NCBI GenBank assembly: GCA_034190875.2 | Contig: CM067343.1 | Coordinates: 23,008,533-23,072,532 of the forward strand | Direction of reading: 5' to 3' | Origin: Urechis unicinctus | Lineage: Eukaryota > Annelida > Polychaeta > Xenopneusta > Urechidae | Length of the DNA: 64,000 bases | Made by a program: the position numbers and the translations under genes | In this document: positions 1-49,935 of the stretch, in pieces | Numbering within the stretch: position 1 is the stretch's first letter | Layout of the letters: the number at the start of each line of letters is the position of its first letter | Notes under the pieces: model-generated | Databases searched by the model: none | What the model was told of the DNA's origin: nothing | Seen by the model: the letters and a program-made list of their open reading frames with translations, nothing else

Positions 1-2527
1 ATCAACTGTACAGTAAAGATCCATCGTCATTTTAACAGTATTGACAACAGAACAACACCGTATGTGCTACCCTTTGAACAATATTGTCTGTACATAATGC
101 TTATCACGGAACAAGAATATTTTACATTTCATCCAAGAGAAGACTTATCGTGATTTTTGGCTGACACTTTATAAAATCTAAGATATTGCTTAGTTAATTA
201 TTGTTTTTCAAATTGTGTGGATGCGTCCATTAATAATGCGAAGCTAGATAAGTGAGGCATTGATTATGGGCATATATAACGCAAGCATTAACATTTGTAT
301 CACACATTGTCGATAAAGAGAACAGTCACCATTAACGAATCCCCGCTATAATAATATGGGATATGCATGCAAATAGTTTGGTTTATCATTCATCAAGCTT
401 AATATATCCCTGTAAAGTGAATACAAATGGTCAATACGTTCCCCGTCTAACAAGAACAACGATCCATGACGAGGTCCACGTCGGTAATGTTGATATACCA
501 TTTCACTAACAGACACTAGCGTAATCTCGTAATGCACGATATTCCCGCTATTGCCGACGAGTGCCTTGATTTGTAAGCATAAATACATTTGTTGTGTTAA
601 GCGTAGCAGTGGCGTAATCAGTTATCCTGACAATCGTTGCTGAGACATTTAACGATCATGCTTTCATTTCGTATTCTATTTTGTATTGAATCAGAAAATA
701 TATGAATTGCATATTGCAACTATATCTGCAATACTACTTTGTGAGGATGTCACCATATTGTTACAGCTTCTTTTTTCATCAACAGTAGTATTATGGGAAT
801 ACCTTGCTGCATGGTACTTAATCAGGGTTAAACAAGACCAGTATTTGGATTTATCATCAACAGCTTGTACCATTACCATCTAAGGATTGTCCACAAAGCT
901 AAGCAATGCGGGGAACATCGCATTCTATTTAATAAGTGGGCAGCATCTATGCCTGTAGTTCATCCATCGGGCAGTCTGCGAACAGATTATTCCAAAATAA
1001 ATGCTTCATTAAAAGACGTTTATCGCCTCATGTCCTAATATGCAGCCGCATATAACAAAACGACTGTAAATTGCCGACATATAATGACCTCTTCTGGTGT
1101 GATATGGACACAATGGCATAAGTTTGTTATGCTTTGAATATTTTCGTGACGCGTATTGGATTTTAGCGTCAATATTCTCGTTCTACACTTTTTACTCGCA
1201 TATAGAGAAAGTTCATTTAATATGCGTGGCTGATCTTTCCCAAAGATGTGTGCAAGTTTGAACCCGATTTTTCTACGGTGGGCAATTGTATTGTAAACAA
1301 GTCGACTAAGTTAATACAGAGCAATGCGCGTTCTTTTGTTAGGCTCATGGCTGATATAGTTAAATCTACGAATGTACTGGTTTGCAAATGATCTATTCTA
1401 TTCTCATCTAGCATGAACTGAGCGGGCTGACGAGGTCTGCAATTTGCGATATGAATGATCGTGGTATCAATTCAATGATCATTTTTGCTGATAACGGTCA
1501 ATGTAAAAGTAATGTTTTAGTGCATTGTGCTGCGAATGCGAATGAGTCAGACTTTTTGAACGAACATTCTCAAAAAGTATATTCCCATCATTCAACATAA
1601 CAGGTGTAAATTTTGCAACATGATTTGATGCAAGCAACTCTCAAAGCCTGTCCGTCATTATGACGCCCCAATTATAGCCCCAATTATGTACTGGCTTAAA
1701 GGATGCCCCAAGTTACTCATGTAACGTCAATACAAACCGTAACCTTCGCCTTATTGCACAGCATAATGAATGTGAGCCACATCGAAAATTAATTGGTACG
1801 TGATAGTAACGTTATACGGGTAAGAGCTTAATAATTTTACACATGTAATCACTAATCATAAGCCATGCTCTTAATTATCAATTTTGCCAAAAAGTAAGAA
1901 ATATATTAACAGCCATCTTCCATTCTTTAATTGCGGTGTGAATTATTATGCAGATGTATCGTGTGGGACCTGTAGCAAACATTTAAGTTTTCCTCGACTT
2001 CATATTGAATGTGAACAGATTGTTTTCATTTTATTTATTGTCTTGTTTCACTCCAAAACTCTTTAAGGGTCATCTGTAGAACATCAAAGCCGTGCGATAT
2101 ATTATAAAAGTTGAACGCATCTGTCATCACCTAATTGCCATACTAATTCCGCAATCAGCCGATATGATAACTTATCTTTGAGATGAATAGATAAACGAAA
2201 GAGCAACAAAGAATATGTTTCAAATTTAATCGTTTATGTTGACAGCACTTATGTTAATACGCTGTGTTGCCAGCATATACATGCCAATATGATACATTCG
2301 CAAATGTGTAAGTTAGTTACAATAGAATGGAGAGTCTATGTTGAACAGGTACTACTTGTACACCGCCAACGGCTAATTGCTGTAGCCACCAAAACATCGC
2401 TTCTGTACAGATTGTTGCTGAAAAACATCACGCGTGTATTTAATGAAGAAATTTCCCGAGGTGCTTTCTGCAACATGATGACGTAATTTCGTTTCATGGT
2501 TGTTTATTTGGTAATTTTGTTAGGGGG
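1..2527 (+). repeat. LR-0: partial copy of the large LR repeat family
   Basis: This block is collinear with LR-A1 (bases 75-1360 match about 7230-8640) and LR-A2 (bases 1-2140 match about 11717-14430). It matches LR-B and LR-C in inverted orientation. It begins before the window edge. Compared with LR-A1 it lacks about 170 bp near position 575. From about 2140 it leaves the LR-A2 sequence and instead matches LR-D (61375-61735). Its last bases, near 2424-2510, match the LR-A1 end at 9658-9760. No gene is recognised. Short open stretches exist on both strands, such as 346-588 on the minus strand, and their relatives occur in the other copies. The right end runs into a simple-sequence block. Confidence 0.8.
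346..588 (-). other. Short open frame inside LR-0 with relatives in four other LR copies
   Basis: An 80-codon frame. Its core RRGPRHGSLFLLDGERIDH has clear relatives in the equivalent place of LR-B (plus strand, about 25200-25400), LR-C (plus, about 44020-44160) and LR-A1 (minus, about 7440-7680), and a frame-broken one in LR-A2 (minus, about 11930-12190). Each relative is open over tens of codons and then stops. No known family is recognised. It may be the last visible piece of an ancestral LR protein, or just an accidental frame in conserved DNA. Confidence 0.25.
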
Positions 2528-2937
2528 GTTATATATAAGAGATATATATATATATATATATATATATAGATATATATATATATATATATATCTATATCGA
2601 TATATCTATCTCTATATCTCTATATATATCTCTCTCTAGAGAGAATAGAGATATATCTCTCTATCTCTCTCTCTCTATATAGAGAGAGATCTATCTCTCT
2701 CCCCTCTAGAGAGACATCTCTATAGAGATCTATAGAGAGATAGAGATCTCTAGAGAAAATCTCTCTCTATCTCTGTCTCTATATATATCTATATCTCTCT
2801 CTCTTCTATCTATACTCTCTCTATCTCTCTCTCTCTCTCTATATATCTATATCTCTCTCTATATCTCTGTATATCTATATCTATCTCTCTATCTATATAT
2901 ATATATCTCTATATATATCTATCTATATCTCTCTCTT
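2528..2937. repeat. Compound TA/TC/TCTA simple-sequence block
   Basis: About 410 bp are made almost only of interleaved TA, GA, TC and CTAT motifs, with many small self-complementary pieces such as TCTAGAGA. The block separates LR-0 from the LTR-retroelement fossil. It is likely a microsatellite that expanded and then degenerated. Confidence 0.9.
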
Positions 2938-48315: not shown

Positions 48316-48861
48316 TCCATCAAACTGATCACGGAGAGAGTACGCAACGTTGATGGGTAAGTTGGGTGCCTAAATCTGGCGGTCATTTCTTAGGGCCTTT
48401 CCTATAATTAAGATTCCTGAGAAACGAGATACAATCATCTTAAATACAGATGTTAAGTAATATATAGAAGTTCAAGAACTTCGTAAACCTAAGTCTGGAG
48501 TTTAAGTCCACATAATCACAAGTGCGATCGTTCCCACTTCAACATCCCATTTCACGATCGACAAATGGTGGGGATTCAATTGACCCGGATGTCATGCAAA
48601 AAGTAAAAGTTGATTATACCTTTTGATACAATTTTAGGCCCTGTATCATATATATTGCCACCACCTCATTTTCCTGTGTTGAACCCTGGTAGTAGAGTTA
48701 TATGCTTTTGACCCACAGGAACGATCAATCTGATATGGAGAGTCAGGGGATTTCTCAAAAGGACGATAAAGCTCAGTATGAGAAGATGCAAGCTGAGAAT
48801 GACGCCATAAGAACTGTGGTGGGGGGGGGGCGACGTGATGAGAGCTAAAAACAACAAAGCT
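48316..48861. other. Unassigned interval between LR-C main block and its distal module
   Basis: No gene and no match elsewhere in the window. It contains a 10-G run at 48821-48830 just before the distal module. The minus-strand frame 48666-48890 crosses the repeat border and is not credible. Confidence 0.5.
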
Positions 48862-49935
48862 GTTTGCATACTACAAACAGCAGCACTCAACGACTTGCCT
48901 ATATGGGACTAGTTTTAGAGATTACAAGTCTTGTTTGTTTTGTACTACCGTGAGAATTATCGGGGTATTTTTGGTCACCTTATGTGATTTGAATATTGTT
49001 ACAGTTGGAAATCTATGTAATTGGTGTGTCGGTCCTTCGTGTATAATAAAACCATAGCATTATTGAATCACAGAGCTATTCGTTGCAAATTAGTAATTCG
49101 ATATCGTAACAAAATTCCGTTCGTTCCAGAAATAAACTGAGCTGACTGAAGAGATATGTCTGTGATGAGTGTTGGAAAATTCTATATACCGATTGACTGC
49201 CAATATAAATCATCCATGGATGAATTGGCGTCTACTAGTAAATTATTGGGCGATGGGCCTGCAGTTGCTTGTTAAGACCATTATATGGATAGTCTGGTGA
49301 GCATTAACGTGCCAGTCTGGGTGTTGTAAGGAGATTGACATGTGGCGGATGTGTCTATTACAATATAGACCAGATCATACGAGATATGTTACTCACTCGA
49401 ACACTAATAAACACCTGGATAGAGCTAAGAATCCGAAAGTGAGCAATCGATATCAAAGTACTCTTTTTTCCATATTGCCATGACAGTTGCTCACCTAGCG
49501 ACAAGAGGTTTAAACATAACCAGTGCATTTTCTGTCTATCGATATTATGGGCGGCCATGAGAAAATCAATTAGTTAGTTTAGCTATTCTATGGCCGCAAG
49601 CACATGTTGATGATTGTGTGCAACCAACATAATTATGTCTGGGATGAATGCGACATGATTATGTCTGCACATGTATAGTTATCAATCTTTGTGTTACAAA
49701 TTATCAGTCTAATGTTTGATGTTTAACTCAAATATTATCGTTCGGGACTTTCATTACACCTGCGCACCAGTAAGATATGACATATGGTCTTTAACCGGGG
49801 CAACTATCAAAATCAAGTGTGATAAACAAAGCCATTGTCAACACCGGATGTTTATTTGTACATTTATTAGATCGAAAAAGTTTCCTAGGGACATAATGTG
49901 AATATGGCATATGAGCATTTTCATATTGAATTACG
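48862..49935 (-). repeat. Distal module of LR-C, shared with LR-B
   Basis: Same orientation as 32150-32715, with clear runs such as ATGGATAGTCT, ACCAGATCATACGA and CCTGCGCACCA. It is split by a 365-bp segment (48911-49275) absent from LR-B. Confidence 0.75.
48911..49275. mobile_element. 365-bp insertion in the LR-C distal module
   Basis: LR-B has TATGGGACTATGACCATT uninterrupted. In LR-C the same flanks are 365 bp apart. No terminal repeats, tail or coding part is seen, so the element class is unknown. Deletion from LR-B is the alternative. Confidence 0.45.

Follow-up and report, generated by a model that had tools for sequence, protein, structure and literature searches.

The genome of Urechis unicinctus contains, in the 64,000 nucleotides analysed here (C2:23008533-23072532, called the window throughout), several copies of a family of large repeats (LR). 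Very probably, these repeats form a gene-free cluster of old segmental duplications at a single locus, ~22.8-23.95 Mb of C2. The direct support is that multi-kilobase stretches recur locally many times and on either strand, their order partly kept, and that they show graded divergence, mosaic flanks and a conversion-like tract. We searched the whole assembly (1.19 Gb, 926 contigs) and, for local comparisons, an extended region of 264 kb made of the window plus 200 kb downstream; positions in it, marked "big", equal the C2 coordinate minus 23008532. A prokaryote collection held no relatives of this genome, whose size, together with the microsatellites and the pieces of a multi-exon P450 gene nearby, marks it as eukaryotic and probably animal.

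When the window was compared with itself by blastn, 60 pairs of at least 150 bp were obtained (32,596 aligned bases), whereas ten out of ten dinucleotide shuffles of the window gave no match of that length. No open reading frame (ORF) of at least 150 amino acids (aa) was present anywhere in the 64 kb. The original prediction for this DNA, namely that long and mostly non-coding repeats occur on both strands, is thus borne out. The limits of the LR copies, taken from chained self-alignments, were as follows (F and G lie downstream of the window, in big coordinates):

1-2508, + strand: LR copy A1, cut by the window start
4580-9755, + strand: LR copy A2, with a left module in common with D
9914-17351, + strand: LR copy B, with a left module (M) in common with C
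21189-30594, - strand: LR copy C
39315-48363, - strand: LR copy D, chained over 39315-48215, in which LR proper stops near 39440, joining block Q
66.6-72.9 kb: LR copy F
188.3-191.8 kb: LR copy G

At least six copies had been expected in the window; chaining gives five, with F and G beyond its end and shorter LR pieces scattered between these two. The proposal that the + unit is split into a left part, A1, and a right part, A2, did not hold either: the parts of the unit covered by A1 and A2 overlap, and the + strand carries another long copy, B. Identities over aligned bases were 77.9-86.0% in the 28 pairs formed by eight copies, namely the seven listed above and a copy on C12. Values for individual pairs were 86.0% for A1 and A2 (1,318 aligned bases), 85.3% for A2 and D (3,807 bases), 84.7% for B and C (5,656 bases) and 78.6% for A2 and B, while G, over fewer bases, matched A1, A2 and B at 85.9, 85.8 and 84.8%, respectively. 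The high identity predicted for sampled stretches (80-91%) was therefore found, at a slightly lower level of 78-86%. Module M also harbours a 22-bp minisatellite, present in 4.9 copies in B (10395-10501) and 8.7 copies in C (29271-29460).

The distribution of LR in the genome was strikingly local. Searches with three LR pieces yielded 18-22 candidates each, all of which were scored. With D 44000-46500, 45 of 47 matches fell on C2:22.94-23.94 Mb and two on C12; with B 13300-16985, 57 of 60 fell on C2:22.94-23.95 Mb and three on C12; with C 27800-30594, all 39 fell on C2:22.95-23.44 Mb. The search skips very common words, making these counts lower bounds, but they may also be inflated up to twofold because an inverted mirror copy of the region, described below, is counted too. 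The five C12 matches belong to a single LR copy, ~80% identical over aligned bases and colinear except for small pieces. Adjacent sequences behaved similarly: all 16 matches listed for the block at 19312-20684 were on C2:22.80-23.41 Mb, and for block Q (query 33000-35240; best 40 of 204 candidates scored) 24 of 52 matches were at the locus, including all those exceeding 155 bp. The remaining 28 lay within query positions 2026-2223, which correspond to a short dispersed element at window 35025-35222, with 28 matches of at most 155 bp outside the locus, over many contigs. The C12 copy of LR is itself broken by the insertion of an unrelated element that carries a 370-aa frame lacking a Pfam match, and a partial duplicate of that element (98.8-98.9%) lies 4.3 kb upstream.

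As an internal control, we used the query 33000-37500, which adds to block Q part of a transposon insert (35257-38917). It returned 1,312 first-look candidates. Of the best 40, which were scored, one was the window itself and the other 39 were insert copies, 91-95% identical and located on C1 and C3-C17; 38 of the 39 started within 10 bp of each other (the far insert end was outside the query). Dispersed genomic copies, as expected of a transposon, were thus found for the control insert, on 16 other contigs, and not for LR, for which one copy was found elsewhere. This contrast between the locality of LR and the dispersal of the control is our main argument for local duplication rather than a mobile element. 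The whole-genome search that the original prediction had called for points, with its matches at one locus plus one C12 copy, to the option of segmental duplication.

LR is not the only sequence copied at this locus. The neighbouring blocks were delimited as follows:

19312-20684, + strand: further local block, with an inverted copy at 52118-50784
20931-21187, + strand: block Y, abutting LR-C and 79.5% identical to big 127077-127335
31571-32681, + strand: block P, copy 1
33265-39437, + strand: block Q, broken by the transposon insert at 35257-38917
48860-49815, + strand: block P, copy 2 (part)

The stretches at 32150-32715 and 48862-49935, previously described as extensions of LR, both belong to the separate block P, itself locally copied. 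Blocks P, Q and Y recur beside LR, and the order P-Q-Y-LR is partly kept in C, D and G. D has P, then Q up to 39437, then LR starting at 39440; around C we observed Y at 20931-21187, LR starting at 21189 and P at 31571, with no Q seen; in G, blocks P, Q and Y are followed by a spacer of 2 kb and then LR, the whole series being inverted. P-Q-Y-P without LR occurs around big 120-130 and 142-150 kb. Overall, matches of 150 bp or more in the first 222.7 kb of the neighbourhood, a span that excludes the mirror copy, cover 48,653 of the 64,000 window bases. By the same measure, 153,346 of those 222,712 bases are locally repeated (137,270 of them covered by pairs below 90% identity alone), and with the mirror part the figure becomes 191,635 of 264,000. 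Identities of local pairs span 64-97%. Near block edges, at 2530-2936, 31405-31547, 48282-48314 and 55621-55735, there are long microsatellites or a homopolymer, where low-complexity masking biases the alignment ends.

Among the LR copies compared, there was no common pair of ends. In coordinates of D, the copies start at 38, 1198, 1422, 2495, 2709 and 3990 and end at 5659, 6261, 7495, 7652, 8961 and 9086, a comparison that excludes A1 (cut by the window start) and in which N truncates the C12 end and the last piece of B lies in block Q. The junctions inspected were the right ends of D and G.

Several approaches gave no sign of coding content. In 358 ungapped blocks among seven LR copies, mismatches had no three-base period (χ2 579, 716 degrees of freedom), and indel lengths were divisible by 3 in 20% of cases. 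Over the local pairs in the 264 kb, 404 shared stop-free runs of at least 40 codons carried no codon signal: 3.0% gave p < 0.05, the lowest p was 0.004, and mismatches were spread over the codon positions as 2365/2347/2410. Six-frame Pfam scans of the whole window revealed neither a convincing domain nor a recognisable transposon coding remnant in LR. Seven scattered matches in 20001-31400 and 39001-50400 (E 0.048-0.94) were taken as chance, and the remaining window gave an unplaced zinc-knuckle match (E 0.027) and two others (E 0.059 and 0.096). By ORFs, Pfam and codon tests, then, no gene was detected in the shared LR core, although short unrecognised exons could escape. Rfam at gathering scores gave no match, a tRNA scan found none, and a plasmid collection searched with 44000-48000 had no match.

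These results are consistent with a history of serial duplication. Unequal or ectopic recombination, or template switching, would have copied an intergenic stretch both in tandem and inverted, and every round of duplication would have eased the next; the copies would then have decayed unconstrained, acquired transposons and swapped short tracts by gene conversion. No function is necessary to explain the cluster. The identities of A1 with A2, A2 with D and B with C, along with the order A2 (+), B (+), C (-), D (-), offer a suggestion, no more, that an inverted duplication took place long ago around a centre near 19 kb, with A2-B as one arm and C-D as the other.

A number of observations fit less comfortably with an old duplication cluster. 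The inverted-duplication reading is weak, because A1, A2 and B resemble G as much as they do their supposed arm partners. The LR copies, C12 included, are nearly equidistant (78-86%), so that a single old burst fits too, and these identities are below the 90% usual for segmental duplications. Around the copy on another chromosome, C12, neither block P nor block Q was seen in the 37 kb of sequence read, which includes 4.5 kb of N, and decayed LR copies elsewhere could escape a search that skips very common words. D and G stop at the same LR base (D 8961) and have different neighbours, as at a transposon end; this shared end also fits a common ancestral breakpoint followed by deletion. Finally, within-tile self-coverage was 19% in the 37-kb C12 stretch and 49, 21, 5, 46, 9, 14 and 9% in seven C2 tiles. 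The duplication contrast is therefore visible only at the scale of hundreds of kilobases, and the controls are thin.

Near-equidistant copies, a copy on C12 and an end common to D and G are also what one might see if LR were a non-autonomous transposable element, old and very large, that hopped locally near its source and has since decayed. We consider this highly improbable. A single copy was found beyond the locus by a search that recovers a true transposon on 16 other contigs; most copies end differently, only D and G having one end in common; the neighbours P, Q, Y and M were copied along with LR, and searches with M, Q and the block at 19312-20684 give long matches at the locus only; and the window scans recognised no transposon coding remnant in LR. 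The giant non-autonomous element that had been put forward as an option is therefore not supported, given one locus plus one C12 copy, no common end pair and partly conserved neighbours. As to another option, a mobile segmental duplication, the copies at one locus speak for segmental duplication, and nothing shows mobility of the unit. Seen through a single window, an old local duplication cluster is easily mistaken for a mobile element of giant size; what separates the two is a genome-wide search that includes a transposon as internal control.

Local tandem and inverted copying is typical of gene clusters, and LR could in principle be the intronic or intergenic part of one, with small exons that are unrecognised or pseudogenes. 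P450 gene pieces do lie ~40 kb past the window end, but three of them have no second copy in the 264 kb and sit in one of its least repeated bins. The codon-position signal is absent over local pairs, multiples of 3 account for 20% of the indel lengths, and LR has no convincing Pfam match, even if very short or fast-evolving exons would escape. On balance, this origin appears highly improbable. An even poorer fit is a satellite-like or centromeric array, which we regard as hardly credible: many family members are indeed found at one place, but they are on both strands, with irregular spacing and no regular period, as mosaic units that vary in length and content and are separated by unrelated blocks, and the tandem repeats detected across the window amount to short micro- and minisatellites. 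The third option of the original prediction, a satellite-like array, is accordingly set aside as well.

Mosaic, clustered blocks of low-copy duplication are well known, as described in the available portions of two reports (PMC2820476, PMC3878106). Like those segmental duplications or low-copy repeats, LR is duplicated DNA of more than 1 kb at low copy number, and the locus is a mosaic of smaller blocks in both orientations, clustered in one region. LR differs in its identity of 78-86% and in its restriction to one locus save for one copy. The identity cut usual for segmental duplications is 90% (PMC3878106, available portion); LR pairs fall below it, and only younger layers, such as big 115-139 and 139-160 kb, exceed it. 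According to the same portion of that source, most duplications there are in gene-free and transposon-free regions. The kind of structure is thus already known; what is unusual is its depth (pairs of 64-97%) and the absence of a detected gene in the repeats, and we make no claim that gene-free clusters of this sort are unreported.

A further likeness is to the primate core duplicons (PMC6920530, as far as its available portion goes), which occur mostly on one chromosome, have one core across mosaic blocks and have expanded repeatedly. Their cores carry genes, many of them fast-evolving, while no gene was found in the LR core. It is conceivable, though unlikely, that LR is a core duplicon with neither gene nor transposon in its core, which repeatedly amplified itself locally over a long period, driven by rearrangement-prone sequence (for example inverted copies and microsatellites) or by a dosage-selected non-coding RNA, either long or a small-RNA precursor. 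If a non-coding core did drive the LR cluster, this would make a case for asking why gene-less loci duplicate.

Exchange between copies is suggested by one tract, whose two members are:

5218-5560, + strand: gene-conversion-like tract in A2, 98.25% identical to D 46456-46114 over 343 bp
46114-46456, - strand: partner tract in D

The flanks of the tract are 79% and 86% identical. In the tract, the mirror copy of D shows 99.4% and that of A2 only 93%. Such a pattern is expected from gene conversion, and the two mirror copies differ in it.

The mirror copy itself consists of many matches that recur in inverted orientation at C2 ~23238861-23457791 (~23.24-23.46 Mb), with 92-97% identity in a comparison that kept only pieces of at least 92%. 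On the left side, a longer N run, possibly an assembly gap, directly precedes the start of the mirror match at 23238861; on the right side, the last match, paired with its left partner by position and not by alignment, ends at 23457791, one base before a 100-bp N run. A duplicate running from contig end to contig end at 3-8% difference is a sign of an unpurged alternative haplotype. We first favoured a real palindrome with gene conversion between its arms and then came to doubt it, given the N runs; judging from the assembled sequence, the mirror image may be such a haplotype, which we hold likelier than a true palindrome with arms of more than 200 kb. Haplotypic (false) duplication is a documented feature of assemblies (PMC7203741, in its available portion). 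The likeness lies in a 92-97% mirror copy that meets an N run on both sides; it bears on the mirror layer only and not on the 78-86% copies inside the window. Given this possible haplotype duplication, neither copies nor palindromes should be counted from the assembly as it stands. The direct copies at big 115-139 and 139-160 kb, 92-98% identical in the pieces passing the 92% cut and with no N between them, are probably real recent duplications.

The insert used as a control (window 35257-38917) is a DNA transposon of 3,661 bp whose terminal inverted repeats have a GTGCATTTTTTCAAA core; its target duplication is TTAA, and an empty site was found at big ~126055. The insert holds a 146-aa frame (36841-37278) with a weak match to P2RX7_C, at E 0.01 when scanned alone (16.2 bits against a cut-off of 23.5). 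The P2RX7_C match at E 7e-4 in the window scan is taken to be this frame.

Past the window, the P450 exon-like pieces lie at big 104391-109000 (C2 ~23.113-23.118 Mb), in one of the least repeated 10-kb bins of the 264 kb. We take them to be CYP4-like. The first piece scored 19.4 bits, below the Pfam cut-off of 22.8, the part near the haem-binding motif looks interrupted, and for three of the pieces no second copy was found within the 264 kb. More broadly, 96 stop-free segments of at least 88 aa (of 99 in the 200-kb flank) matched 28 Pfam families at E ≤ 0.1. Among the 25 of these 28 families that were listed were DDE_1 (E 2e-19), Tc5/CENP-B DNA-binding domains and P450; only P450 was placed, outside LR. 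The DDE_1 and Tc5/CENP-B matches presumably derive from a pogo/Tigger-like transposase.

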